Part shown: positions 29,801-44,302 of the stretch, one piece after another | Position numbering within the stretch: position 1 is the first letter of the stretch | Layout: every line of letters begins with the position of its first letter | NCBI RefSeq assembly: GCF_003335215.1 | Contig: NZ_QPGB01000001.1 | Coordinates: forward strand, 124,001-188,000 | Reading direction: 5' to 3' | Length of the DNA stretch: 64,000 nt | Source: Parvibium lacunae | GTDB taxonomy: Bacteria; Pseudomonadota; Gammaproteobacteria; Burkholderiales; Burkholderiaceae_D | Position numbers and translations under genes: made by a program | Notes under the pieces: model-generated | Databases searched by the model: none | What the model was told of the DNA's origin: nothing | Seen by the model: only the letters and a program-made list of their open reading frames with translations

Positions 29801-30055
29801 GCCGTGAACAAAGTCACCGAAGGTCGTCCACATGTGGTGGATATGATCAAGAATGGCGACATCGCCTTGGTCATTAACACCGTGGAAGAAAAGCGTAACG
29901 CCATTACTGATTCTCGTTCTATCCGCACCAGCGCGCTCGGCGCGAAGGTGCCGGTGTATACCACCATTGCCGGGGCGAAAGCCGCGGTGGTGGGGATTCA
30001 TCACATGAATGAGATGGATGTGTATAGCGTTCAAGCGCTGCACGCTTCACTCTAA
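26840..30055 (+). CDS. carB: Carbamoyl-phosphate synthase large subunit
   Basis: A 1071-residue CarB with the full duplicated layout: the carboxyphosphate half (about 1-400, two-part ATP-grasp with [20 protein letters not shown]), an oligomerisation domain (about 400-550), the carbamoyl-phosphate half (about 550-935, [20 protein letters not shown]) and a C-terminal MGS-like allosteric domain (about 936-1071) where UMP and ornithine bind in E. coli. It uses bicarbonate, ammonia from CarA and two ATP to make carbamoyl phosphate for arginine and pyrimidines. TAGGAAACC precedes ATG 26840. A palindromic element follows the stop. Confidence 0.98.
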
Positions 30056-30070
30056 CAAGCCACTAAAAAC

Positions 30071-30140
30071 GCGGTGGGCGGTGTTGTGCCGCCTTGCTGT
30101 ACTAATGTACTATCTTCGTCGGCACGCCTAGCCCACCCCG
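30071..30140. repeat. Long imperfect palindrome after carB (same class as 1420-1504)
   Basis: Left arm GCGGTGGGCGGTGTTGTGCCG and right arm CGGCACGCCTAGCCCACCCCG pair over most of their length. The centre is GTAC-TAAT-GTAC (30099-30110), like the element after sdhB. It begins about 15 nt after the carB stop. The arm sequences differ between the two copies while the plan and centre are kept. It probably acts as a transcript-end structure. Confidence 0.6.
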
Positions 30141-30241
30141 TTTTAATTGACTTGTTGATTCGAGACTGAGCCAAAATCATTTCTGCTATTGTTGTTTCAG
30201 AAGGTCGTGTTTGATGAGTTAAAGCATGCCACTTGGCCTGC

Positions 30242-30271
30242 TTGTTCTTTATCAAAAATCACCCTTATAAT
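30242..30271 (+). promoter_or_regulatory. Sigma-70 promoter for greA
   Basis: TTGTTC (30242-30247), an 18-bp spacer and a perfect TATAAT (30266-30271) form a good sigma-70 promoter. Transcription should start near 30278, giving a leader of about 68 nt that holds a terminator-like hairpin. Confidence 0.7.
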
Positions 30272-30289
30272 GTGATCCATTCATGATTT

Positions 30290-30315
30290 GCCCTGGTAAC
30301 GAACCGGGGCTTTTT
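30290..30315 (+). terminator. Terminator-like hairpin in the greA leader
   Basis: GCCCTGG (30290-30296) pairs with CCGGGGC (30304-30310) through one G-T pair, with a 7-nt loop, and is followed at once by TTTTTATTT. It lies between the greA promoter and ATG, so it can end transcription early. E. coli greA is known to have leader termination that yields the short GraL RNAs; a similar arrangement is inferred here. Confidence 0.65.
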
Positions 30316-30345
30316 ATTTCTACTTTGTTTTTGTAGGTTAAGTCT

Positions 30346-30822
30346 ATGTCTACCATTCCTATTACCGTGCGCGGTGCTGAATTATTGAAAGAAGAATTGC
30401 ATCGCTTGAAAACGGTGGATCGTCCGAGCGTGATCAACGCGATTGCGGAGGCCCGTGCGCAAGGCGATTTATCTGAAAACGCCGAGTACGATGCTGCGAA
30501 AGAGCGCCAAGGTTTTATTGAAGGCCGAATTCAAGAGCTGGAAGGTAAACTCTCTAACGCACAAATTATTGATGCAAAAAGTTTGGATGCCGATGGTCGC
30601 GTGGTGTTTGCGGCGACGGTGGAGATGGAAGAACTGGAGTCCGGTGATAAAGCCACTTATCAGATCGTTGGGGATGATGAGGCTGATATCAAACAAGGCA
30701 AAATTTCCGTGAACTCGCCAATTGCGCGTGGGATGATTGGTAAATTTGCCGGTGATGTGGTCGAGATTCAAACCCCTGGTGGCGTACGTGAGTACGAAAT
30801 TCTGGATGTGAAGTACATTTAG
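30346..30822 (+). CDS. greA: Transcript cleavage factor GreA
   Basis: A 158-residue Gre factor of the standard length. The N-terminal coiled-coil hairpin has the tip [15 protein letters not shown] with the acidic pair (Asp, Glu) that enters the RNA polymerase secondary channel, and the C-terminal FKBP-like domain ends [23 protein letters not shown]. It stimulates cleavage of backtracked RNA and rescues stalled polymerase. The leader between its promoter and ATG contains a terminator-like hairpin. Two small genes follow in the same direction, the first after 27 nt. Confidence 0.97.
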
Positions 30823-30849
30823 TCGCCACATGCAAATTGGGGAGAGGGT

Positions 30850-31311
30850 ATGCAACCCGAAAAAGTTCAAGTTGAATCCTTTGTTGTCGCCGGTATTCAA
30901 ACGCGCACGACTAACGCGCAAGAGATGAACCCGCTCACCGCTAAAATCCCCGCGCTCTGGGGGCGGTTTATGAGCGAAGGGCATTACAACCGGATTCCGC
31001 AAGTGGTGGCCGATTCCCCCGTATATGGCGTATATGCCGATTTTGAGTCCGACGCAAATGGCGCTTATTCCCTGATTGCAGGGCGTGCTGTGAGTGCCGC
31101 AAGTAGTGAGACAGCGAGTGCGACGATTGCCGCTGGCACTTACCTCAAATTCGCTGCGCCCGGCCCGTGTCCGCAGGTGGTGATTTCAACCTGGATGGCG
31201 ATTTGGCAATATTTTCAGGCCAACCCACAAATTCAGCGTGCGTATGTGAGTGATTTTGAGCGCTATGAATCCCCTGAAGGCATTGAAATTTACATTGGTG
31301 TTCAAGGCTAA
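30850..31311 (+). CDS. GyrI-like small-molecule-binding (AraC effector-binding) domain protein
   Basis: A 153-residue stand-alone GyrI-like/AraC_E_bind domain: N-terminal VESFVVAGIQTRTTNAQE, the central LWGRFMSEG and VYGVYADFESD segments and the C-terminal ISTWMAIWQYF...FERYESPE with the conserved Glu. There is no DNA-binding domain. Family members bind or sequester hydrophobic or cationic drugs, and some hydrolyse cyclopropanoid toxins; the ligand here is unknown. GGGAGAGG precedes the ATG. Its TAA stop shares a base with the next ATG (TAATG), so it is coupled to the DUF4149 gene. Confidence 0.82.
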   Translation: MQPEKVQVESFVVAGIQTRTTNAQEMNPLTAKIPALWGRFMSEGHYNRIPQVVADSPVYGVYADFESDANGAYSLIAGRAVSAASSETASATIAAGTYLKFAAPGPCPQVVISTWMAIWQYFQANPQIQRAYVSDFERYESPEGIEIYIGVQG

Positions 31312-31811
31312 TGAGTAACCACACCAAATTTCAAATGCATCTACAAAGGCTACTGCAAGTGGCCTTTGTTTTATGGATTGGCAGCCTGTTCACCATTGGC
31401 GTGATTGTCGCCCCGATCCTTTTCGCCACCTTGCCCGACCGTGTGTTGGCCGGTACGCTAGCAGGGCGCTTTTTTTATATTGAAGCTTGGTTGTCGCTGG
31501 GGTTTGGATTGTTTTATACAGCGTACTTCTGGCGTGTGCAGCCATCGGTGAGTCGTTACCCCCGTTACACCGACTATGCCTGTTTAATGATTGCCATCTT
31601 GGCGGCGTTGCAGTTGTTTGGCTTACAGCCGGCAATCGTTGCGCTGCGTGAGCAAGCGGCTGCACTGGGCGGTTCGGTTGCACAAGCCCCCGAAGCCTTA
31701 CGGCAGCAGTTTGGTGTATTGCACGGTGCCTCTACCCTAATCTATTTGCTGCAACTGGGGTTGGGGTTATCTTTGTTGTGGCGTACTCACTTTATCAGGC
31801 TGAACCCTTAA
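31311..31811 (+). CDS. DUF4149 membrane protein
   Basis: A 166-residue protein with four hydrophobic helices (about 15-38, 55-70, 83-103, 137-156). The N terminus (LLQVAFVLWIGSLFTIGVIVAPILFATLPDR) fits DUF4149, a small membrane family frequently found between greA and yhbY in betaproteobacteria. The function is unknown. It is the last plus-strand gene before the convergent yhbY gene and is translationally coupled to the GyrI-like gene by TAATG. Confidence 0.8.
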   Translation: MSNHTKFQMHLQRLLQVAFVLWIGSLFTIGVIVAPILFATLPDRVLAGTLAGRFFYIEAWLSLGFGLFYTAYFWRVQPSVSRYPRYTDYACLMIAILAALQLFGLQPAIVALREQAAALGGSVAQAPEALRQQFGVLHGASTLIYLLQLGLGLSLLWRTHFIRLNP

Positions 31812-31855
31812 TTCAGGGTTTCCCTAGCCTAAAGCGCTCTTTTTGGCGCTTTTTT
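31803..31855 (+). terminator. Terminator of the greA operon
   Basis: Two hairpins follow each other: AACCCT/AGGGTT (31803-31820) over the DUF4149 stop, then AAGCGC/GCGCTT (31832-31851) with four more T residues. The second lies inside the 3' end of the convergent yhbY gene. Confidence 0.6.
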
Positions 31856-32339
31856 GCCGAACCTGTTTGACTCGACCACTATTCGATTTATCCACTGATC
31901 GTTTTTTTAATTGAATCAGTCCCCCTTTGCGCATTTTGGCGCGAGGACTCACGGCTTTGTCACCGTAGCTTTTGCTATTTGGGGTGCTGCTAGCAGTGCG
32001 ACGAGTTTGCTGCAGTTTGCGCTCTAAGGCACGCGGGGCGCGCTCTTCGGTGGCAGCAGATTCAGCGGTAGGGCGGAAAATAACGAGTAGCTTGCCAATG
32101 TGTTGAATGGGTGCTGCATTCAGGGTGTCGCAAATTTCTTCGTAAATCGCAATGCGGGCTTCGCGTTCGTCGCCGAAAACCCGTACTTTAATCAGGCCAT
32201 GCGATTTGAGCGCGCGGTCGATTTCTTTCATCACCGCAGGGGTCAGGCCATCGGCACCGATCAGAACAACGGGGTTGAGGGCGTGCGCATGTGAACGAAG
32301 CTCACTGCGCTCGGCGGAAGTTAACACTAAAGCAGGCAT
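31824..32339 (-). CDS. yhbY: CRS1-YhbY RNA-binding protein with long basic tail
   Basis: The first about 95 residues are a complete YhbY/CRM domain (LTSAERSELRSHAHALNPVVLIGADGLTPAVMKEIDRAL, then GLIKVRVFGDEREAR), a fold that binds pre-50S ribosomes in E. coli. A tail of about 75 residues, rich in Lys, Arg and Ser (KSYGDKAVSPRAKMRKGG, VKQVRQKSAKKSALG), roughly doubles the usual 97-residue length. I use ATG 32339; a GTG two codons earlier is possible. It is divergent from rlmE, the usual arrangement, and both act on the 50S subunit. Confidence 0.9.
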   Translation of the reverse strand: MPALVLTSAERSELRSHAHALNPVVLIGADGLTPAVMKEIDRALKSHGLIKVRVFGDEREARIAIYEEICDTLNAAPIQHIGKLLVIFRPTAESAATEERAPRALERKLQQTRRTASSTPNSKSYGDKAVSPRAKMRKGGLIQLKKRSVDKSNSGRVKQVRQKSAKKSALG

Positions 32340-32418
32340 AATCACTCTTTCTTATCAATTACCCGTATTATCCCAGTTTATTCAGGCTTAGGGAAACACA
32401 GATTACGCCGCACACAGC

Positions 32419-33069
32419 ATGTCAAAAAAACATAAATTCAATAAATCCTGGTTACATGACCATATCAATGACCCCTACGTCAAAATGGCGCAAGCCCAGG
32501 GCTATCGCGCCCGAGCGGCCTTCAAGCTAAAAGAAATTGATGAGCAAGACAAACTCATCAAGCCCGGAATGACAATCGTGGATTTGGGCTCTGCCCCCGG
32601 CAGTTGGAGCCAAGTCGTGCGCGAAAAACTCGCAGGGCCAGGGGGCCAGATCAATGGTCGAATTATTGCGATGGATATTTTGCCGATGGCCGAGATTGCA
32701 GGCGTGACCTTTCTACAGGGTGATTTTCGGGAAGATTCGGTCCTGGAGCAGCTCAATGAAATGGTCGGTGGTGAAAAAGTAGACCTTGTACTTTCCGATA
32801 TGGCCCCCAACTTGTCGGGGGTAGGTGTGGCCGATGCCGCACGGATGGAACATATCTGTGAGCTGGCGCTGGAATTTGCGCAAATGCACTTGAAACCGAA
32901 TGGCGCCTTGCTGGTCAAAGCTTTTCATGGCAGTGGTTACAGCCAAATTGTGCAGCAATTTAAAGCACAGTTTGCTGTGGTTGCGCCACGTAAGCCAAAG
33001 GCCTCACGCGATAAATCGGCAGAAACGTTTATTCTTGGACGTCATTTGAAGCGTTACGAGTCTGCCTAA
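32419..33069 (+). CDS. rlmE: 23S rRNA (U2552) 2'-O-ribose methyltransferase RlmE
   Basis: A 216-residue FtsJ/RrmJ methyltransferase. It has the N-terminal basic helix ([23 protein letters not shown], containing the first catalytic Lys), the SAM loop [10 protein letters not shown], the catalytic Asp in [11 protein letters not shown] and the Lys in LLVKAFHG. It methylates U2552 in the A loop of 23S rRNA late in 50S assembly using SAM. It precedes ftsH by 150 nt, the conserved rlmE-ftsH pair of proteobacteria. Confidence 0.96.
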
Positions 33070-33219
33070 GCGATGAAACGGGCGGCGAGCATCTGGGGGC
33101 CTGACTGTTACTTAAACAGAATCGCCCTGCAAAAAGGCCGCTGCCGCAGTACAATGTAAGCCTAGTAGTTAGGTAACCCGCTTGGTTCATGATGATGGCT
33201 GAGCATAAGGAGTGAGCAA

Positions 33220-35109
33220 TTGAATAGTCCTTTTTCCAAAGCAGCAATCTGGGTTGTCGTGGCCTTGATTTTATTTGGCGTCTTTCGCCAAATTGACTCC
33301 CGGGGGCCCGGTGGCGCAGATCAGGTAGCCTATTCTGATTTCCTTGAAGATATCAAGGATGGGCGCATCAAGAGCGCCGAACTGGATAACAAGCAAGTAG
33401 TTGCTGAGACCACCGATGGCCGGCGGATCAGAACGCCGATTACTTACCTAGATCGCGGCTTGATTGGAGATTTCATCAAATATGGGGTGAAATTTAAAAT
33501 CAAGCAGGAAGAAGAGCCTTCCCTGTTAGCCAGCTTATTCCTTTCCTCCTTTCCCGTCTTGTTGATTATTGGCGCTTGGCTCTATTTCATGCGGCAAATG
33601 CAAGGTGGGGGCAAAGGCGGTGCTTTCTCATTTGGCAAATCACGCGCCAAAATGCTCGATGAATCGAATAACAGCGTCACCTTTGCCGATGTTGCGGGTT
33701 GCGATGAAGCGAAGGAAGAAGTCCAGGAGTTAGTCGATTTCCTGCGCGACCCCAGCAAATTTCAAAAACTTGGCGGGCGCATCCCCCGTGGCGTACTAAT
33801 GGTCGGCTCCCCCGGTACGGGTAAAACATTACTGGCGAAAGCCATCGCAGGCGAAGCCAAGGTCCCTTTCTTTACCATTTCAGGCTCAGACTTTGTTGAA
33901 ATGTTTGTTGGGGTTGGCGCGTCTCGCGTCCGTGATATGTTCGAGACCGCTAAAAAACATGCCCCCTGCATTATTTTTATCGATGAGATTGATGCGGTCG
34001 GCCGCCAGCGTGGTGCTGGTTTGGGCGGCGGTAATGATGAGCGCGAACAAACCTTGAACCAGATGCTGGTCGAGATGGATGGCTTCGAAACTGGGCTTGG
34101 TGTGATTGTGATTGCGGCAACCAACCGTCCTGATGTGCTTGATCCTGCCCTGTTGCGGCCTGGCCGTTTTGATCGTCAAGTGGTGGTGTCATTGCCAGAT
34201 ATTCGCGGGCGTGAACAAATTTTGAAAGTCCACATGCGCAAAGTCCCTCTTGCGCCCGATGTTGAGGCTTCCGTTTTGGCGCGTGGTACCCCAGGCTTTT
34301 CCGGCGCTGATTTAGCTAACCTGGTCAATGAGGCTGCTCTGTTTGCAGCACGTCGTCATGGTCGTGTGGTGGATATGCATGACTTTGAGAAAGCCAAAGA
34401 TAAAATCATCATGGGCGCAGAGCGACGCTCTGTTGTTATGCCTGAAGAAGAACGCCGGGCCACGGCTTATCACGAGTCAGGTCATGCCATTATTGGTAAG
34501 CTCCTACCCAAATGTGACCCCGTACACAAAGTCACCATCATTCCGCGTGGTCGTGCGCTGGGTGTGACCATGAGTTTGCCAGAGCGTGATCGTTACGGCT
34601 ACGACAAAGAATTCATGCTGCAACAAATTGTGATGTTGTTCGGTGGTCGTGCTGCGGAAGAAGTCTTCCTTAACCAGATGACGACTGGCGCCAGTAATGA
34701 CTTTGAACGTGCCACGGCGTTGGCACGGGATATGGTAACGCGTTACGGCATGACAGAAGCGTTGGGTCCGATGGTCTATGCAGAAAATGAAAGCGAAGTG
34801 TTCCTGGGTCGTTCGGTGACTAAAACCACTAACACGTCAGAAGCCACCATGCAAAAGATCGATGCGGAAATTCGTCGGATTCTGGACGAGCAATATGCGC
34901 TGGCAATTAAATTACTGAATGAAAATCGCGATAAGGTCGAAGCGATGACCAATGCCTTGATGGAATTTGAAACCATCGATGCCGAACAGATTGACGATAT
35001 TATGCAAGGACGTCCAGTCCGCGCGCCCAAGGTAGACGATCGTCGTTCTTCAGGTGGAACACCCCCTAGCGGCGGCGCTGTCGAGCCTAATGCCCCTGCC
35101 GCAGCCTGA
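33220..35109 (+). CDS. ftsH: ATP-dependent zinc metalloprotease FtsH
   Basis: A 629-residue membrane-anchored AAA+ protease. Two membrane helices (about 5-22 and 101-120) enclose a periplasmic domain; the AAA module has Walker A GSPGTGKT (196-203), Walker [14 protein letters not shown] and the second region of homology ([20 protein letters not shown]); the protease has zinc motif HESGH (418-422). It degrades LpxC, misassembled membrane proteins and others. The start is TTG 33220 with AAGGAG eight nt upstream; no ATG is near. A strong terminator follows, which isolates it from the genes beyond. Confidence 0.97.
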
Positions 35110-35129
35110 TGCGATGGCATGTCGAGTAT

Positions 35130-35158
35130 AAAAAACCGGACCAAAAGTCCGGTTTTTT
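35130..35158. terminator. Bidirectional intrinsic terminator between ftsH and lysR
   Basis: AAAAAACCGGAC (35130-35141), the 5-nt loop CAAAA and GTCCGGTTTTTT (35147-35158) form a perfect 12-bp stem with A and T runs on both sides. It ends both the ftsH and the convergent lysR transcripts. Confidence 0.92.
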
Positions 35159-35172
35159 TATGGGCCATAGAA

Positions 35173-36099
35173 CTACGTTGGCATATCCAACACTTCAGCT
35201 TCACTACGGGCGAGCAGTTGTCGTAGCATCGGGTGTTGAAAATGCCGCTTCACGGTAATTGCATAGAAGTGCTCATACAGATTCGGCAGCCGATAAAACG
35301 CTTTTAATGCGCCGTCACGCAGTTCGTCGCGCACCACCACACTGGGTAGAACAGCAGCAGCAAGACCTTCCCGAGCCATCAGTCGCAGCATGGCCATGTC
35401 ATCCACCTCCGCCAAAATTTCAACCTGCAGGCGGTGTTGCTCGCACAGTAAATCAAATGCAGTCCTGATATCACTGGCGCGACTTGGCACGATTAAGGGG
35501 AGATCAGCCAATCCTTGGGGAAAAGCGAGGGGTTTCCGCTTGTTGGCTTGTTGAGTCTGTTGATAAATCGCCTTTGCGCCAACCAAACTCACTTGCTGGC
35601 GTGCAATACGTTGGCAGCGCCAGGGATTTTCGCTGTCGCCTTGTACCGCCCGGTTAGACAACACTAAATCAAGATTGTGTGCACTCAGGCGGGTGAGTAA
35701 CTCAGACAGCGATCCCGCTTGTAACACCAGTGAGAGCTCAGGGAGGCCTAGCAATGGCTTGATAAAACTCTCTTGCAGATTACGTGACAGGGTCGATACC
35801 GCCCCAATCCGTAGAGTTTGCCGTTCCCGATAATGGCCCTGGCTCATGGTCGCCAGGAGTTCGTGTCCAGTGGCAAAAATACTGTCTGCATAGTTTTTGG
35901 CGATTCGACCAGCCTCGGTCAAAATCAGATTTCGCCCTTGTCGTTGAAAGAGTGCCTGACCTAACTGGGCTTCCAGTTGCTTAATTTGGGCAGAGAGGGC
36001 GGACTGAGAGATATGGAGCTGCTCAGCCGTCCGGGTTAAATGACCATTCTCTGCGACGGCCCAAAAATAGTGAAGATGATGGTAATTCAGTCGATGCAT
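35173..36099 (-). CDS. LysR-type regulator divergent from dabBA (NhaR-like)
   Basis: A 308-residue LysR regulator. The N-terminal helix-turn-helix (LNYHHLHYFWAVAENGHLTRTAEQLHISQSALSAQI) is of the NhaR-like subgroup, followed by a LysR substrate-binding domain (about 90-300). A very good ribosome binding site, AGGAGG, lies 5 nt before the ATG. It diverges from dabB, and the shared spacer holds inverted repeats fitting LysR sites, so it is probably the activator of dabBA that senses a signal of low inorganic carbon. The ligand is not known. NhaR in E. coli answers to Na+, so ion or pH sensing is an alternative. Confidence 0.88.
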   Translation of the reverse strand: MHRLNYHHLHYFWAVAENGHLTRTAEQLHISQSALSAQIKQLEAQLGQALFQRQGRNLILTEAGRIAKNYADSIFATGHELLATMSQGHYRERQTLRIGAVSTLSRNLQESFIKPLLGLPELSLVLQAGSLSELLTRLSAHNLDLVLSNRAVQGDSENPWRCQRIARQQVSLVGAKAIYQQTQQANKRKPLAFPQGLADLPLIVPSRASDIRTAFDLLCEQHRLQVEILAEVDDMAMLRLMAREGLAAAVLPSVVVRDELRDGALKAFYRLPNLYEHFYAITVKRHFQHPMLRQLLARSEAEVLDMPT

Positions 36100-36117
36100 A
36101 GAGCCTCCTGAGAGGGA

Positions 36118-36174
36118 TTTATTATTCTAATAAACAGAACTAAAACAAACAAATAATGTATTTTACAGAATATT
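36118..36174. promoter_or_regulatory. LysR operator region of dab: two inverted repeats
   Basis: The first repeat is TTTATTA-TTC-TAATAAA (36118-36134), a perfect 7-bp inverted repeat of the T-N11-A kind. The second, AATAATGTA-TTT-TACAGAATATT (36152-36174), has a perfect TGTA/TACA core. Their centres are 36 bp apart and sit near -71 and -35 relative to the predicted dab start, matching the recognition-site and activation-site layout of LysR regulators. Confidence 0.6.
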
Positions 36175-36190
36175 ATGGCATGCAGATAAT
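36162..36190 (+). promoter_or_regulatory. Sigma-70 promoter for dabBA
   Basis: TTTACA (36162-36167), 17 bp, then GATAAT (36185-36190) match 5 of 6 bases at each hexamer. The -35 overlaps the second LysR inverted repeat. Start of transcription is expected near 36197, giving a 39-nt leader. Confidence 0.6.
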
Positions 36191-36235
36191 TCACCCTGTT
36201 GACCTTACGTCTCGACCAATTGATCAGGAGGGTTT

Positions 36236-37885
36236 ATGTTTCTTTCGCAAGCGCCAGCGCAGTGGGTTGGGCTCTATTTACTAATTCCACTGCTGTATTT
36301 GTTGCCCGCTGGTTTGGCTATCTGGCAGCGTTTGCCTGCCGCCTTTGCCTGGAGACTAGCTCAGCGTTACAGCGTCTATGCACTATCGGTCGCGCTCATT
36401 CAGACTGTTATTTATGCCTTGCTGGTTGGCACAGAGCCGGTGGTGAGACAATACCTCGGGGTGGCATACGGCAATCAACAGTGGATTGGATTAAGCATTC
36501 GCTTTGATGCCCTCACCGTGATGCTTTCCTTGCTGGTGACATTGATTGCATGGGTCATTATTCGTTATTCCGATAACTATCTGGCAGGGGACAAGGGACG
36601 TCAACGTTACCTAAGTTGGTTATTGCTAACGCTGGCTGCAGTGAGTTTACTGGTGCAGTTAAATAATCTGGTCTTCATTGCCGCAGCGTGGATTGCAACT
36701 AGTCTTTCTTTGCATCAGTTATTAATGTTTTACCGCGAGCGCCTACCCGCTGCAACGGCTGCTCATAAGAAATTCCTGATCAGTCGTCTGGCTGATATCA
36801 CCTTACTCGCTGCGCTTATTTTGCTCGGGCAGCACTATAGTTTCGAACTCGATGTGCTGGCGCAGCAGCTCAGCAGTAACGCGCACAGCAGCTCGTTACA
36901 GTGGGTCGCTGGCTTGTTAGCGCTGACCGCGATATTGAAATGTGCCCAGCTCCCTTTTCATGGCTGGTTGATTCAAGTGATGGAAGCGCCCACGCCAATT
37001 TCAGCACTGCTGCATGCGGGTATTGTGAATATCGGCGGGTTTGTCCTGATTCGTTGCGCCTCATTGCTAGATACCTCCGTGTGGGCTCAGGGCATTCTGG
37101 TGGTGTTTGGGAGCCTAACCGCTGTTGTCGCTGCGCTGGTGATGACAACTCGAATTAGCATCAAGGTTATGCTGGCTTGGTCCACCTGTGCGCAGATGGG
37201 TTTTATGCTCTTACAGTGTGGCTTGGGAGCATATGACTTAGCGCTGCTGCACCTGCTGGCCCATTCCCTGTACAAAGCCTACGCTTTCTTAAATGCAGGC
37301 GATACCGTCTACGAAACCCGCATCAAGAGTCAGGTCCCTGCGTTACCAGGTAAGCCCAGTCTCTGGTTGATTACCGCTCTGTTGTGCGTACTAGCAGGCA
37401 TCGTGACGGCGGGCTGGCTCTCGGGTTGGCCACTTGCCGGTCAGGTCAGTGACTTTACCTCCACCCACTTTTTCTATCTGGTCCTGGCGTTAGCATTGCC
37501 AAGTGCCCTGGTTCCTCGCCAGACGGTATCGGGTCTCAAATTGCTAGGGATTTGGGTGCTTGGCGTCGCCGCACTCATGGGGCTTTATACCCTGTGGCAT
37601 AGCCTCGTCGGTCACTGGGTTACCCCACGCACGGCAGCTTTGCCGGCTTGGCAGCTTATTTTGCTGGTGGGCTTATTTGGCGGGTTGTTTCTCGTCAACC
37701 TCGCCATCCAGTTACAAGCTCATACGCCTTTCATGCGCAAACTCTATCCGCATGTCTTCGCTGGTTTTTATCTGGATGAGTTATTCACCCGTTTGACCTT
37801 TCTGGTTTGGCCAATGCCAAAAGGTAAGCCAGTCACGTTGTCTCATCTGCCCGTCGCCCAATCTGCCGAAAAGAGTTCATCATGA
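36236..37885 (+). CDS. dabB: DabB, membrane subunit of the DAB inorganic-carbon pump
   Basis: A 549-residue polytopic membrane protein of the NuoL/MrpA proton-channel family (proton_antipo_M), with about thirteen hydrophobic segments. The core motif LPFHGWLIQVMEAPTPISALLHAGIVN is the broken-helix and Lys/His proton-path region shared with complex I antiporter-like subunits; AHSLYKAYAFLNAG is a second one. No other complex I gene is near, and dabA follows with a 4-nt ATGA overlap, so it is the DabB partner that couples cation or proton flow to DabA. AGGAGGG lies 4 nt before the ATG. A plain NADH dehydrogenase subunit is excluded by context. Confidence 0.93.
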   Translation: MFLSQAPAQWVGLYLLIPLLYLLPAGLAIWQRLPAAFAWRLAQRYSVYALSVALIQTVIYALLVGTEPVVRQYLGVAYGNQQWIGLSIRFDALTVMLSLLVTLIAWVIIRYSDNYLAGDKGRQRYLSWLLLTLAAVSLLVQLNNLVFIAAAWIATSLSLHQLLMFYRERLPAATAAHKKFLISRLADITLLAALILLGQHYSFELDVLAQQLSSNAHSSSLQWVAGLLALTAILKCAQLPFHGWLIQVMEAPTPISALLHAGIVNIGGFVLIRCASLLDTSVWAQGILVVFGSLTAVVAALVMTTRISIKVMLAWSTCAQMGFMLLQCGLGAYDLALLHLLAHSLYKAYAFLNAGDTVYETRIKSQVPALPGKPSLWLITALLCVLAGIVTAGWLSGWPLAGQVSDFTSTHFFYLVLALALPSALVPRQTVSGLKLLGIWVLGVAALMGLYTLWHSLVGHWVTPRTAALPAWQLILLVGLFGGLFLVNLAIQLQAHTPFMRKLYPHVFAGFYLDELFTRLTFLVWPMPKGKPVTLSHLPVAQSAEKSSS

Positions 37886-40518
37886 ATGCGATTACCCCTG
37901 ATTCTGTTTTAACAACATATCCCGCGTTTGAGCCGAGTGTGATTCAAGCTGCCATCACGCGCGCTTGTGGCCGCATTGCGCCAACCTGGCCATTGGATCA
38001 ATTTATTGCCGTGAATCCCTACTGGGGGTTTGTGGAGCAATCGCTACCGCAATTGGGCGGCACGCTGGCACGCTTGTCAGGCAGCCCACTATTGATGCCG
38101 CCAGCGTGGTATCAAGAAGCCTGGCGGGCGGGCAGTTTTAAGCTAGAAGATTTGCAGCGCGCATGTCAGTACACAACGGCTGGCGTCAGTGTACCGACGC
38201 TGCTCGGGTTATTAACGAGTGCCACCCCTACCCCTGCCTACACAACCCAACCCCGACTGCCGCTCTTAACACACCTGGCAGATGAGGCTGATTTGTCGCC
38301 TTACCACATGCCTTGGCGTGAATACGTGACCCAATCACTCAGCCAATGGTGCGGAGCCTATTACGACCAGCACCAAGCCCAATGGCATGCGGATAAAACA
38401 GCGGGTTTTTTCCCTTTCTGGTTAGCGGCTGCGCGGGAAGATCGCGGCCCCAGTCTGCAAATGGGGTTAACCAATGGAGCCAATGTGCTGGCGCAGCTCC
38501 CTGTTGACCCCGAGGCGGCTGTGATCTGGTTGCTGGGGCGCTTAGCGATTCCTGCGCCATTGTTGGAAGACTACTTGACTGCCGTGTTGTTGAGTTTGAA
38601 TGGGTGGGCTGCCTGGGCGGCTTATCAAGCATGGCAAGCACAGCTGCAACAGCAGTCGGCGACAGATGTTCTACACATTTTAGCGGCCCGGCTGACTTGG
38701 GAATATCTGTTGTTCCAAGGCTTACCGAGCCTGCCACATTGTTGGCGTCAGGCATTATCAAGCTATCAAAACCAGGTGCAAACCGAGACCCCCACAGAGG
38801 AAACCAGTGTGGCCTGGTGGACCATACAACACGCTTATGAATTGGCCTATCAGCGCACCTTATTGCAAGGGTTAAATCAGGAATTAGGGGCAACGACTAA
38901 ACCCCCAACCCCACGCCCGGCAGTGCAAGCCGCGTTTTGTATTGATGTTCGTTCAGAAATCATTCGGCGCGGCTTTGAAGCCTGCTCCCCGCAGATCGAA
39001 ACGCTCGGATTTGCCGGCTTTTTCGGCTTGCCGGTAGATTACATGCCACTGGCCAGCAAACTTGCCCGGCCCCAATTGCCAGGCTTGCTCGCCGCAAAGC
39101 TGCGTGTTACCGATCATGATCTCGGCAATTCAGCCAATGAGCTGACGCTATCGGCAGCGGTAAGCGCCGCTAAGGCTGCGTCAGCAGACGATTCCCTTGC
39201 CAAACTCGCGGACCAGCGCACACAGCGGCTTGGTTGGCGCGCCGCTTGGCAAGGCTTCAAGCGCCATGCAAATGCTGGTTTTAGTTTTGTCGAAACCTGC
39301 GGCTTGAGTTACGCGCCTAAGCTGGTGCAAGCCAGCTTTGGTACGAAACAGCAGGTGCTGCCAGAGCGGGTGGGCTTGTCAGCGCAAGAAGCTGCACGTT
39401 TACAACCGCGTATCGCTGGGGCAGCGACAGACGCCTCGACCCTGCCGCAGCCCCTGAGTTTTGTGTTGTCACAAAAAATTGAGCTTGCCCAAGGGGTCCT
39501 GGCAGCGATGTCGCTCGCACACCAAGCAGATCGTTTAGCGCGTTTGATTCTCCTGGTTGGCCACGGCAGCCAAACTGTCAATAACCCCCATGCAGCGGGT
39601 CTTGACTGCGGCGCTTGTTGTGGTCAGACCGGCGAGGTCAATGCCCGGGCGCTAGCCGCGTTACTCAATGAGCCAGCCGTGCGCAAAGGCTTGCAGGAAA
39701 AAGGACTGTCATTGCCTGACGATACCTGGTTTGTGCCCGCTTTGCATAATACGACGACCGATCAAATCACCCTGTTTGATACCACGGCAATGCCGGCAAG
39801 TCATGCTACCGACCTCCAGCAACTGCAAACCTGGCTACAACAAGCTCAGCATGCTACAAATTACGAACGCGCTGGGCGGCTTGATTTACCCGTCTCTACA
39901 AACGGCGGGCTGGATAAAGGGCAACAAACCCTGGCGATTACCGCGCGGGCCATGGATTGGTCGCAAGTCCGCCCCGAGTGGGCTTTGGCCGATAATGCTG
40001 CGTTTATTGTCGCGCCAAGGGCGCGTACCAAATCATTGGAATTGGCAGGCCGAACCTTCCTGCACGATTACCAGCATGAACATGACGATGGTTATGCCAT
40101 TCTTGAGCTGATTATGACCGCACCGATGGTGGTGGCCCATTGGATCAACATGCAGTACTACGCCTCCACGGTTGATAACCCGCGCTATGGCAGCGGTAAT
40201 AAAGTGCTGCATAACGTCGTCGGTGGCCATATTGGCGTGTTTGAAGGTAATGGCGGTGATTTACGGATTGGCCTGCCCCTGCAATCCCTGCACAACGGCG
40301 AACGCTGGATGCACACCCCCTTGCGGCTCACGGTATGTATTGAAGCGCCGCAAGCCCCGATGACCGCAATTATCGACAAACACCCGCTGGTGCGGCAGCT
40401 GCTCGACAATGGCTGGATTCACCTGTTTCAAATGGCCGCCGCCCCCAGTAAACCCGCGATTGCCCGGTACAATCAGGGCCAATGGCAACCTTGGGAGGAT
40501 TTCCCCCTTCCGCATTAA
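37882..40518 (+). CDS. dabA: DabA (DUF2309), zinc carbonic-anhydrase-like subunit of the DAB pump
   Basis: An 878-residue soluble DUF2309/UPF0753 protein. Residues Cys353 and Asp355 (FCIDVRSEIIRRG), His561 (LVGHGS) and Cys576 (LDCGACCG) have the relative spacing of the zinc ligands Cys351, Asp353, His524 and Cys539 of Halothiobacillus DabA (2 and 15 residues), so the beta-carbonic-anhydrase-like site looks intact; Arg357 fits the conserved active-site Arg. Coupled to DabB it hydrates CO2 to bicarbonate one way using membrane energy, so bicarbonate accumulates in the cytoplasm. The folP ATG is 2 nt past its stop, linking this operon to folP-glmM. Confidence 0.94.
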   Translation: MNAITPDSVLTTYPAFEPSVIQAAITRACGRIAPTWPLDQFIAVNPYWGFVEQSLPQLGGTLARLSGSPLLMPPAWYQEAWRAGSFKLEDLQRACQYTTAGVSVPTLLGLLTSATPTPAYTTQPRLPLLTHLADEADLSPYHMPWREYVTQSLSQWCGAYYDQHQAQWHADKTAGFFPFWLAAAREDRGPSLQMGLTNGANVLAQLPVDPEAAVIWLLGRLAIPAPLLEDYLTAVLLSLNGWAAWAAYQAWQAQLQQQSATDVLHILAARLTWEYLLFQGLPSLPHCWRQALSSYQNQVQTETPTEETSVAWWTIQHAYELAYQRTLLQGLNQELGATTKPPTPRPAVQAAFCIDVRSEIIRRGFEACSPQIETLGFAGFFGLPVDYMPLASKLARPQLPGLLAAKLRVTDHDLGNSANELTLSAAVSAAKAASADDSLAKLADQRTQRLGWRAAWQGFKRHANAGFSFVETCGLSYAPKLVQASFGTKQQVLPERVGLSAQEAARLQPRIAGAATDASTLPQPLSFVLSQKIELAQGVLAAMSLAHQADRLARLILLVGHGSQTVNNPHAAGLDCGACCGQTGEVNARALAALLNEPAVRKGLQEKGLSLPDDTWFVPALHNTTTDQITLFDTTAMPASHATDLQQLQTWLQQAQHATNYERAGRLDLPVSTNGGLDKGQQTLAITARAMDWSQVRPEWALADNAAFIVAPRARTKSLELAGRTFLHDYQHEHDDGYAILELIMTAPMVVAHWINMQYYASTVDNPRYGSGNKVLHNVVGGHIGVFEGNGGDLRIGLPLQSLHNGERWMHTPLRLTVCIEAPQAPMTAIIDKHPLVRQLLDNGWIHLFQMAAAPSKPAIARYNQGQWQPWEDFPLPH

Positions 40519-40520
40519 AC

Positions 40521-41360
40521 ATGCAGGCGCAGCAGCTCATTCAAACTTGGCAGACTCTCTCCCGGCCTTTGGTCATGGGGGTGGTCAATGTCACGCCGGA
40601 TTCTTTCTCCGATGGCGGGCAATTCTTTTCACCCCAAGCAGCACTTGACCACGCCGCCAAATTAGTGGGCGACGGAGCCGACATCCTGGATATCGGTGGT
40701 GAATCTTCCCGCCCCGGTGCGCCCGCGGTGAGCGAGGCTGAAGAGTTGCGCCGCGTGCTGCCCGTGGTTGAAGGCGCGCTCAAATTGGGTAAACCACTTT
40801 CGGTGGATACCACCAAAGCGGCGGTGATGCGTGTGGTGAGCGAACTCGGTGTCGCCATGCTCAATGATATTAGCGGCTTCCAGCATCCGGATACCTTTGC
40901 CGCTGCCGTCGAGAGCCAGTGCGCATTGTGTGTCATGCACATGCAGGGCGCGCCGCAAACCATGCAGGCCGACCCGCGCTATAGCGATGTGCTTGCTGAA
41001 GTCGAAGGGTTTCTACTCCAGCAAGCCCAAGCCCTTGAAGCGGCGGGGGTGGCGCGTGAACGCATCTGTCTCGACCCCGGTTTTGGTTTTGGCAAAACCT
41101 TGGCGCATAATCTCGATTTATTACATGGCTTGCCACGCTTGGCCGCTTTGGGTTATCCCCTCTTGATTGGCGTGTCGCGGAAGTCCATGATTGGGCAGCT
41201 TACAGGCAAGCCGGTGGCGCAGCGCGAAGCGGGTAGCTTGGCCGCGATGCTGGCCGCCGTGGCCCGTGGCGCGCGCATTGTGCGCGTGCATGACGTGGCT
41301 GCCACTGTGGATGCCCTCAAAGTCTGGGCAGCCATAGAAGAACCCTTCTCAGGAACATAG
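40521..41360 (+). CDS. folP: Dihydropteroate synthase
   Basis: A 279-residue TIM-barrel enzyme with the DHPS signatures [16 protein letters not shown] and [14 protein letters not shown], plus [10 protein letters not shown] and the C-terminal RVHDV. It joins p-aminobenzoate to dihydropterin pyrophosphate in folate synthesis and is the sulfonamide target. I use ATG 40521, 2 nt after the dabA stop; an in-frame ATG at 40482 inside dabA would add 13 residues. Neither has a good ribosome binding site, so translation probably couples to dabA. In many betaproteobacteria folP directly follows ftsH; here the dab genes intervene. The PABA-making pabB-pabC fusion is at 49.4-51.2 kb. Confidence 0.95.
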
Positions 41361-41382
41361 CAAGGATAGAACAAGGAAAATA

Positions 41383-42729
41383 ATGAGCAGAAAATATTTT
41401 GGTACTGATGGCGTGCGTGGTCGTGTCGGGCAATATCCAATTACCCCTGATTTCGTTTTACGTCTTGGTTATGCTGCCGGGAAAGTGCTGTTGAAACACA
41501 GCCCGAATGGTTCCCATCCGTCGGTGCTGATTGGCAAAGACACGCGGGTGTCGGGCTACATGATTGAAGCCGCGCTCGAAGCGGGCTTATCCGCCGCCGG
41601 GGTGGATGTGATGCTGGCTGGCCCCATGCCCACGCCCGCTGTCGCCTACCTCACGCGGGCACTGCGCCTATCGGCCGGGATTGTGGTGAGTGCCTCGCAC
41701 AACCCCTACGATGACAACGGCATTAAATTTTTCTCCGCCGCCGGTACCAAACTACCCGATGAAGTGGAGCTGGAAATTGAAGCCTACCTCGACCAGCCGA
41801 TGGGTTGTGCGGATTCCGATCACTTGGGCAAAGCCAAGCGCTTGGATGATGCGGCCGGCCGCTACATAGAATTTTGCAAAAGTACCTTCCCCAACAAGCT
41901 GGATTTGAAGGGCCTCAAAATTGTGGTGGATGCGGCGCATGGCGCGGGCTATCACATTGCCCCGCATGTATTCAGCGAACTCGGTGCCGAAGTGCATGCG
42001 ATTGGCGTGCAACCGAATGGTTTCAATATTAATGACCATGTGGGCGCAACCCATACCGAAGCGCTGGAAGTCGCGGTGCGCGCGAACCATGCCGATTTAG
42101 GCATTGCACTGGATGGCGATGGTGATCGTCTGATCATGGTCGATGGCGATGGCAAGCGCTTTGATGGCGACCAATTACTGTATGCCATGGTGAAAGAGCG
42201 CAAAGCCTCCGAACATGTCGGCGGTAAGGTCGATGGCGTCGTCGGTACCTTAATGAGTAACCTCGCTTTGGAACATCAGCTCGGCAAACTCGGTATTCCT
42301 TTTGAGCGCGCCAAAGTCGGCGATCGCTATGTCATGGAAAAGCTGCTCGAAAAAGGCTGGGTGCTGGGCGGTGAAAACTCTGGCCACTTGATTTGTCTGG
42401 ATCGGCATACCACGGGTGATGCCTTGGTCGCCGCCCTGCAAGTCTTGATTGGCGTGCGGCGTACCGGACTCAGCTTGGGTGAGCTCACGAAAGAACTCGT
42501 GCTGTACCCACAAAAATTGGTGAATGTCCGGATAGAAAAAGGCGCAGACTGGCAAAATAATGCGGCCCTCAAAGCCGCTACGGCGGAGGCTGAAAAAGAG
42601 TTGGGTGAGCATGGTCGCGTATTGATTCGCGCCAGTGGCACCGAGCCACTCGTGCGCGTGATGGTGGAATGCCCAGAGAGCGAACAAGCGACGCGACTGG
42701 CGAATGCGATTGCGGAGACTTTGCGGTAA
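41383..42729 (+). CDS. glmM: Phosphoglucosamine mutase
   Basis: A 448-residue alpha-phosphohexomutase of GlmM type. It begins [18 protein letters not shown], has the phospho-Ser loop [13 protein letters not shown], the metal loop [10 protein letters not shown], the sugar loop GGENSGHLI and the phosphate-binding [12 protein letters not shown]. It converts glucosamine-6-phosphate to glucosamine-1-phosphate for UDP-GlcNAc, hence peptidoglycan and LPS. AAGGAAAATA precedes the ATG. The folP-glmM order is conserved, 22 nt apart here. A biotin gene block starts 34 nt after it, so the transcript may run on into biotin synthesis. Confidence 0.97.
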
Positions 42730-42763
42730 TGAATTGTTCTCCACGGTTCAAGTTTTTATTTTA

Positions 42764-43504
42764 ATGACTGTCGCCAGATTTGATTTTTTAGTGTGCCATG
42801 GTTGGGGCCTCAGCCCAGCCAACCTACAGCCCTTGATGGGTGCGCTGCGTACCCATGCCCCCGATGCCAACTTTCATGCCGTGGACTTGGGCTTCTTTGG
42901 CTCGGCGCGCACGCCCGAATGGCATCGCCTCTCGCAGCCACTCATTGCCATCGGCCATTCGTACGGCTTCGCTTATCTTCAACGGTTACTTGCGCAACCA
43001 AATGCGCCTGCGGTTGCGGGCCACGTGAGTGTGTGCGGCTTCAATCGTTTTTGTTTCAGCCCGAGTAGCCCGCAAAAAAGCGGCACGCCCCTGCGGCTGC
43101 TGAATGCCATGTTGCAACGCTTGGCAGCGGACCCGGTGGCAACGCTCACCGATTTTTACGAGCGTGCGGGCCTGCCCGAAGTTGCGTATCCTGAAGCAGC
43201 CTATCCTGATTTATCAGCCTTGAATCTGGACGCGCTCACAACCCACCTTACATCTTTACGTGATACGAATTTTGCATTGCCTGCTGCGCCACTCTTGGCT
43301 TTAGCGGCAGCGGATGATGTGATTGTGCCGCCCGCTTTGAGTGAGGATTGCTTTAATACTTTGAGCATGACGAGCGGCACGCACGCGTTACCTTTGACTC
43401 ACGCGGATTGGTGTGCAGCGCAGATTGTGAATTGGCTCGGTCAATTAAACCCGGTTAGCTCAACCCATCAGGCGGTACGGCATGCAGTAGATAGCGCGAG
43501 GTAG
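42764..43504 (+). CDS. Alpha/beta hydrolase, probable pimeloyl-ACP methyl ester esterase (BioH-like)
   Basis: A 246-residue alpha/beta hydrolase with the HGWG oxyanion motif near the N terminus (FLVCHGWGLSPANL), the nucleophile elbow GHSYG, a probable acid in AAADDVIVPP and the His of LTHADWC. It directly precedes bioC, so it very likely releases pimeloyl-ACP from its methyl ester, the BioH step. The sequence is not close enough to E. coli BioH or to BioG for me to assign a symbol. ATG 42764 gives the family-like start; an upstream ATG at 42704 lies inside glmM. Confidence 0.78.
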   Translation: MTVARFDFLVCHGWGLSPANLQPLMGALRTHAPDANFHAVDLGFFGSARTPEWHRLSQPLIAIGHSYGFAYLQRLLAQPNAPAVAGHVSVCGFNRFCFSPSSPQKSGTPLRLLNAMLQRLAADPVATLTDFYERAGLPEVAYPEAAYPDLSALNLDALTTHLTSLRDTNFALPAAPLLALAAADDVIVPPALSEDCFNTLSMTSGTHALPLTHADWCAAQIVNWLGQLNPVSSTHQAVRHAVDSAR

Positions 43505-43513
43505 CGAAACAAG

Positions 43514-44302
43514 ATGACCGCCGCGACAGTGAATACCAATCCCGTGCAAACCGCCTTTAACGACGCAGCCGCCCAATACAGTGCGGCGGCCCAAGTGCAA
43601 CGGCAGGCGGCGCAGGTATTCGCAGATTGGTTGGCTGTGTTACCCATCTCGAATCCTACCCACATTAGCGAAATCGGCTGTGGCACGGGTTTCCTAACCG
43701 AACACCTGGCACCGCGCCATGCCGTGCCTTACTGTGCGACCGATCTTGCCCCCGCGATGTTGCAGCAAGCGCAAGCGCGTCTGCCCGATTTGGCAGCGCG
43801 TATTGATTGGCAAGTATGGGATGGTCAAAATGGGGTACCCAATTCGGGCGTTCCCAATATCGCCGCATCTACTGATTGGTTGGTGTCCGCGCTATGCGCG
43901 CAGTGGCTCCATCCATTGGACGAGGTGCTGGCCCGCTGGTTGGCGCAAAGTCATGTCGTGGCATTCAGTGTGGTACTGGATGATTCATTTAGCGCTTGGC
44001 GTAACGCGCATGCCCAGCTCGGTTTAAGCAGTGGCTTGCAGCCCTTGCCGAATTGGAGCCAACTGCAAGCGCAATGTCTAGGCTTGGGCGCACAGCAAGC
44101 GTTTTTCCAACACCTCACCTTGAATGAAACCCATGCCAATGCGCTGGCGTTTGCGCACAGTGTTAAAGCGATTGGTGCGCATGTGCCGCGTGCGGGGCAT
44201 CGCTCGGCGGGTTTGCGTAGTCCGCTGCGGCAAGTACTAAAAGCCTTGCCGCAGCCTTGCACGTTGAATTATGAAATTGGTTTCGTCTGCCTTGTAAAAT
44301 AA
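43514..44302 (+). CDS. bioC: Malonyl-[ACP] O-methyltransferase
   Basis: A 262-residue class I SAM methyltransferase. The N-terminal stretch TAFNDAAAQYSAAAQVQRQAA is the BioC signature, followed by the SAM loop ISEIGCGTGFLTEHLA and YCATDLAPAMLQQAQ. It methylates malonyl-ACP, disguising it so that the fatty acid enzymes can extend it to pimeloyl-ACP methyl ester. It is 9 nt after the BioH-like gene and 40 nt before bioD. The C-terminal half is rich in Leu and Gln and is less conserved. Confidence 0.93.
   Translation: MTAATVNTNPVQTAFNDAAAQYSAAAQVQRQAAQVFADWLAVLPISNPTHISEIGCGTGFLTEHLAPRHAVPYCATDLAPAMLQQAQARLPDLAARIDWQVWDGQNGVPNSGVPNIAASTDWLVSALCAQWLHPLDEVLARWLAQSHVVAFSVVLDDSFSAWRNAHAQLGLSSGLQPLPNWSQLQAQCLGLGAQQAFFQHLTLNETHANALAFAHSVKAIGAHVPRAGHRSAGLRSPLRQVLKALPQPCTLNYEIGFVCLVK

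Follow-up and report, generated by a model that had tools for sequence, protein, structure and literature searches.

A probable LysR-regulated DAB-type inorganic-carbon cassette between ftsH and folP of Parvibium lacunae

The DNA analysed here (the window) is a stretch of 64,000 nucleotides (nt) from Parvibium lacunae (GTDB family Burkholderiaceae_D, order Burkholderiales), on contig NZ_QPGB01000001.1 of assembly GCF_003335215.1. Between the housekeeping genes ftsH and folP-glmM it carries three intact genes, lysR, dabB and dabA, which together occupy positions 35173-40518. An earlier note on this DNA, made from the sequence alone, had described this set; the open reading frames lie where it placed them and their Pfam identities agree (Table 1). 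The dabB and dabA reading frames overlap by 4 nt, with no gene between them. We consider it very probable that the three genes make up a complete LysR-regulated inorganic-carbon complex of the DAB/DAC type, whose hydration of CO2 would feed carboxylases, and that they were inserted as a cassette in this lineage.

DabA matches the whole of the Pfam profile PF10070 (positions 1-747 of 747; 860 bits, E 1.7e-258), and in the PDB, at E <= 1, it matches only Halothiobacillus neapolitanus DabA2 (9rd0, E 3e-183), with which 341 of 750 aligned residues are identical when the last alignment block, past residue 825, is excluded. DabB is antiporter-like, as had been proposed, matching PF00361 at 138 bits and having DabB2 (9rd0_B, E 1.9e-67) as its best PDB match. 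For a residue-level comparison we chose 22 residues from among those named or mutated in the cryo-EM paper on DAB2 (PMC13144422), and all 22 are identical (11/11 in DabA and 11/11 in DabB). In DabA, C353, H561, C576, D355 and R357 align with C351, H524, C539, D353 and R355 of DabA2, and the finger glutamate is conserved as Glu471; DabB keeps the proton-path and ion-pair residues S256, H260, K310, S316, H339, H343, K347, K235, D187, R184 and I153. The earlier listing of Cys353, Asp355, His561 and Cys576 as zinc ligands needs one amendment: all four align with DabA2, but in that protein zinc is held by C351, H524 and C539, and the counterpart of Asp355, D353, belongs to an Asp-Arg dyad (PMC13144422). 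Judged by these alignments, the set is probably a complete, intact and active DAB/DAC member. DabB also scores above the cut-off of the NCBIfam equivalog "NADH-quinone oxidoreductase subunit L" (486 bits against 380). No NCBIfam model matches DabA, and automatic naming of the pair would therefore mislead.

Table 1. Features of the ftsH-dab-folP locus (window positions)
Feature	Position	Strand	Description
ftsH	33220..35109	+	upstream housekeeping neighbour; Pfam confirms FtsH
hairpin with flanking A run and T run	35130..35159	.	probable terminator acting on both ftsH and lysR
lysR	35173..36099	-	LysR-type regulator divergent from dabB; Pfam HTH_1 and substrate domain
TTCT-N7-AGAAC	36125..36140	+	proposed LysR recognition site; centre at about -65 from predicted transcription start
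ATTTTAC element and predicted dabB promoter TTTACA-17-GATAAT (10/12)	36160..36190	+	promoter scan and conservation
dabB	36236..37885	+	NuoL/Mrp-like membrane subunit; PF00361
dabA	37882..40518	+	beta-carbonic anhydrase-like cytoplasmic subunit; PF10070
folP	40521..41360	+	ATG 2 nt past dabA stop; Pfam confirms FolP
glmM	41383..42729	+	behind folP; Pfam confirms GlmM

DAB2 is reported to carry out unidirectional hydration of CO2, with the proton-motive force as its probable driver, and is described as a vectorial system rather than a bicarbonate importer (PMC13144422). The energy-driven bicarbonate pump of the earlier note stands as an energy-driven DAB homologue, but on that description the substrate used would be CO2, trapped by vectorial hydration. 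In the mechanism that we propose, protons (or another ion) would flow through DabB down the membrane potential, and the DabA finger motif would couple this flow to the buried zinc site, where CO2 would be turned into bicarbonate in one direction only. When CO2 is scarce, the bicarbonate would pass to the pyruvate carboxylase, CarAB and acetyl-CoA carboxylase of a cell that lacks RuBisCO. The genome is rated 100% complete, and whole-genome searches gave no match for RuBisCO (PF00016; control matches in 5 of 14), for microcompartment shell protein (PF00936; control matches in 2 of 14) or for phosphoenolpyruvate carboxylase (PF00311). The lack of RuBisCO and carboxysome genes, noted earlier for 64 kb, is thereby extended to the whole genome; the wider statement that there is no sign of autotrophy holds for Calvin-cycle RuBisCO and shell proteins, the searches not having covered other autotrophic pathways. 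PF02436 (PYC_OADA) has one match, in a frame of 1170 amino acids (aa) whose examined part contains EAMKM, a sequence resembling a biotin site, so pyruvate carboxylase is likely present, and likely a further bicarbonate user beside the presumed sinks named earlier, CarAB and fatty acid synthesis. DAB homologues in heterotrophs have already been published (PMC13144422, PMC10880623), and a DAB set without RuBisCO is therefore unsurprising in itself. At another dab locus, L103 from an uncultured proteobacterium, a CarB-like frame (match from 628; 40% identity over 1079 aligned aa) lies several kb before dabB, possibly a link of dab to carbamoyl phosphate synthesis.

The place of the cassette is unusual. 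In one Burkholderia, folP lies behind ftsH and upstream of glmM, probably in one operon with glmM (PMC5587915), and the earlier note took ftsH followed by folP to be the usual order. FtsH and FolP searches in 126 family genomes, including that of the window, bear this out: the two matches are 86-381 nt apart in all 118 assessable relatives, those with both on the same contig and strand (median 151 nt with the window's genome included), as against 5414 nt in the window's genome. Of the remaining 7 of the 125 relatives, four gave no FolP match, and in three FolP was found but no FtsH match shared its contig and strand. The gap is likewise short (120-315 nt) in the 19 other dab-bearing genomes of this set, so their dab genes sit elsewhere; four further dab-bearing family genomes fell outside it. 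Neither FtsH nor FolP was found near dabA in the best 80 of 97 dabA loci found on GTDB contigs, 76 of which extend 1 kb or more past the dabA match and 55 of which in addition have at least 6 kb before it. FolP was also missing from all 29 other order-level dab loci, whose flanks of ~1.5 kb are too short to judge ftsH. In the sets searched, the enlarged spacing is confined to this genome and no relative shares the dab site; the insertion into a housekeeping locus that had been suggested is real and, in those sets, unique.

The hairpin between ftsH and lysR helps to delimit the insertion. Its folding z is -3.65 on the + strand and -3.87 on the - strand, and lysR ends 13 nt past its T run; a simple terminator scan omitted it, probably since the A run and the T run are base-paired to each other. 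A rule-based search found a hairpin with a T run in 14 of the ftsH-folP stretches of 16 chosen relatives (one of them inside the ftsH frame; shuffles mean 2.1, maximum 5). Since the hairpin precedes the cassette and relatives carry a similar one, the insertion appears to have landed downstream of the ftsH terminator and ahead of the start of folP, the regulator, its operator, dabB and dabA having entered together as one cassette in this lineage. As to a footprint of insertion, no direct repeat lies exactly at the two edges of the cassette. The nearest repeats, either of which may be chance, are a 15-nt pair (14/15), with one member in ftsH (35059) and the other in dabA (40313), and an 18-nt stretch within dabB (36855) that nearly copies the start of folP (17/18).

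DabA was found in 24/195 family genomes and 91/399 order genomes (the latter count includes the window's own and some family genomes, and one of the 91 is a weak, short match). The best other DabA among the order genomes shares 50% identity with that of the window, and that of GTDB contig L104 shares 60% over a 336-residue part. We built a first DabA tree with FastTree from 132 rows (omitting L017 and L115, which are the window's own copies, as well as rows L024, L026 and L090) and a second under a mixture model from 37 of these rows, 16 of them from the family. The comparison of DabA with the species tree that the earlier note had proposed was made in a narrower form, against the family label only; on that label the family rows do not form one clade. 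In the approximately unbiased (AU) test a single clade for the 16 family rows was rejected (p 3e-62; minimum of 5 label changes), as was the joining of the window's DabA to the main family clade (p 0.0029, for a group picked after the tree had been seen). This history fits repeated transfer, which we infer in preference to differential loss, and it may also have been produced by old paralogy with loss. A related alternative, in which the ancestor of the family already had dab, most lineages lost it and here it has only been relocated to the ftsH-folP gap, would suit its spread over family and order and the ordinary base composition of the cassette (G+C content 0.538 against 0.522 for the window, in which 5.3-kb windows span 0.483-0.569; third-position G+C is also ordinary). 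We judge it unlikely in the light of both rejected groupings, while allowing that old paralogy with losses could mimic this pattern. Some family DabA rows are identical to Noviherbaspirillum and Oxalobacteraceae records. Two family genomes, G010 (L001, L025) and G013 (L009, L026), carry two distinct dabA genes each, and in seven order relatives (G243, G274, G287, G352, G379, G415 and G473) a few kb separate two dabA-like genes, one of which sits in a longer open frame (1061-1222 aa); a second DabB match lies close to such paired genes in L129 and L142.

Several points tell against the proposed carboxylase-feeding complex and its entry as a cassette. The genome encodes two beta-carbonic anhydrases (beta-CAs), 215 and 231 aa long, in which inspection by eye shows no obvious signal peptide; carbonic anhydrases make leakage a real question, and in a Staphylococcus study a carbonic anhydrase and a DAC-type system together gave no growth benefit (PMC8552792). 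The branch leading to the window's DabA is long (0.6 and 0.86 changes per column), and the two trees disagree on its place: FastTree put it with L008 and the mixture-model tree with another group, the L008 grouping not being rejected (p 0.336). With this placement unsettled, we draw nothing from its nearest kin. The ordinary G+C content gives no sign of recent transfer. Lastly, a single genome of the genus is available, without reads; the insertion may be of any age, and the ftsH/dab/folP junctions may formally be an assembly error. This we regard as extremely improbable, given that the locus lies inside a long contig (one reaching beyond 854 kb), that FtsH and FolP have one match apiece in the genome at the thresholds applied and that a hairpin of the usual type stands between ftsH and the cassette.

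The carbonic anhydrases bear on function in two further ways. A survey confined to the beta class found a beta-CA in 182 of the 195 family genomes and in 24/24 of those bearing dab, and DabA is missing from all 13 genomes that gave no beta-CA match (several of these are incomplete); the counts show neither exclusion nor association between dab and beta-CA. A role for dab as a carbonic anhydrase replacement was rejected as unlikely, there being two beta-CAs here and at least one in each of the 24 dab-bearing family genomes. This differs from the picture in Firmicutes, where DAB-type systems and carbonic anhydrase are said to coexist rarely (PMC8552792). A carbonic anhydrase already in the genome would also suit a different coupling or substrate, in which the complex acts as a Na+/HCO3- symporter, as proposed for MpsAB, and serves pH or sodium balance as much as carbon supply. 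MpsAB has been argued to use sodium (PMC13144422), and the best NCBIfam model of the LysR regulator is NhaR, though at 147.9 bits it falls below the cut-off of 219. Set against this are the intact zinc site, the conservation of the seven DabB proton-path residues mutated in DAB2 and of the open-state Ile, and the report that DAB2 did not require sodium (PMC13144422); we hold sodium coupling to be distinctly improbable, and CO2 hydration coupled to ion flow through DabB remains the reading that we prefer.

The regulator offers a further line of evidence. A divergently oriented relative of the LysR (46-63% identity) occupies the same position at 41 of the 80 GTDB-contig dabA loci; where 1.4 kb or more precedes dabB, the count is 40 of 67. 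Tests of operator spacing used 41 loci with a divergent LysR, the window included. In a relaxed test with 200 shuffles, a GAAC/T element in the stretch before lysR lies exactly 23 nt from an A/T-rich box at 32/41 loci, where shuffles gave at most 5 at any distance. Further distances also exceeded this maximum (14 nt at 13 loci, 16 at 9, 19 at 7 and 18 at 6), so A/T-rich make-up or extra structure adds to the signal. The strict form (WGAAY to ATTWTAM, 24 nt) occurs at 18/41 loci against a shuffle maximum of 1, in loci that include Pseudomonadota and a metagenome-assembled genome of Bacteroidetes. The shuffles take no account of relatedness, although some loci come from close kin (Idiomarinaceae), and we had viewed the sequences before writing the patterns. 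A first operator count, on 25 of 29 loci, had found TTCW-N5-9-WGAA at 14 (shuffles mean 1.4, maximum 5) and ATTTTAC at 16 (mean 0.5, maximum 3); a poorly formulated pattern for the second box was found at 2 (mean 1.5, maximum 5). In the window the operator reads TTCTAATAAACAGAAC at 36125-36140, with an ATTTTAC from 36160 that overlaps the predicted TTTACA-17-GATAAT promoter, whose position puts the centre of the palindrome at about -65. A recognition site near -65 is usual for LysR-type activators, and LysR most likely activates dabBA from this conserved site. Genome-wide, the operator pattern (up to 2 mismatches) has a single match, the window site, but the reversed control also has one, so this uniqueness says little. 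We found no description of a LysR-dabB operator in the open-access literature, where differently worded papers would escape the search, and passages of PMC11439405 are silent on one; the conserved operator is a handle on the signal that dab-linked LysR proteins sense.

The complex and its gene order are already known. DAB2 of H. neapolitanus (9rd0, PMC13144422) likewise has two subunits, with near full-length homology and the same residues at all 22 chosen positions, whereas the divergent LysR, the lack of a RuBisCO match and the ftsH-folP address are features of the present genome. DAB1 of the same organism pairs PF10070 with a NuoL-like subunit, as here, but has a third small membrane protein (PMC13144422), for which the overlapping dabB and dabA leave no counterpart. 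A LysR-nuoL-ybcC operon of clade A, with LysR reversed at its 5' end, was reported in 2017 in the COGNAT paper (PMC5700660), and the identical three-gene order is met here; the application section of that paper mentions no operator, no carbon-pump function and neither ftsH nor folP. MpsAB of Staphylococcus aureus is a DAC homologue that supplies inorganic carbon in a heterotroph, as we propose here, but S. aureus is said to be without carbonic anhydrase (PMC8552792). What the present locus adds is a well-supported energy-driven CO2-trapping complex in a cell that has no RuBisCO match yet has its own beta-CAs, at an address not met elsewhere in the sets searched.

The dabA-folP junction raises the question of how folP and glmM are transcribed. 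Because of the 2-nt spacing between dabA and folP, folP-glmM are likely co-transcribed with dabBA, and they may also come under the LysR signal. More tentatively, and in our view doubtfully, the insertion may have captured folP and glmM, so that they are transcribed mainly from the LysR-controlled dab promoter with the conserved operator as switch; we propose this because a terminator and the divergent lysR separate them from ftsH and folP starts directly behind dabA. Were it true, dihydropteroate synthase and phosphoglucosamine mutase, and with them the supply of folate and cell-wall precursors, would be tied to an inorganic-carbon signal. A sigma-70 scan of the + strand gave no candidate between those at 36162 and 42533, a weak result given 9 found against 7.7 in shuffles. 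Relatives likewise carry a hairpin before folP, and the route of folP transcription is thus equally uncertain in them. No RNA family reached its gathering score in 30000-44000, and PADLOC gave no match for LysR, DabB or DabA. With dabA and folP adjoining in this way, the capture of housekeeping genes by a foreign promoter can be tested directly. A second in-frame ATG of folP lies at 40482, within dabA; the conserved FolP sequence matches the ATG at 40521, which is probably the start.

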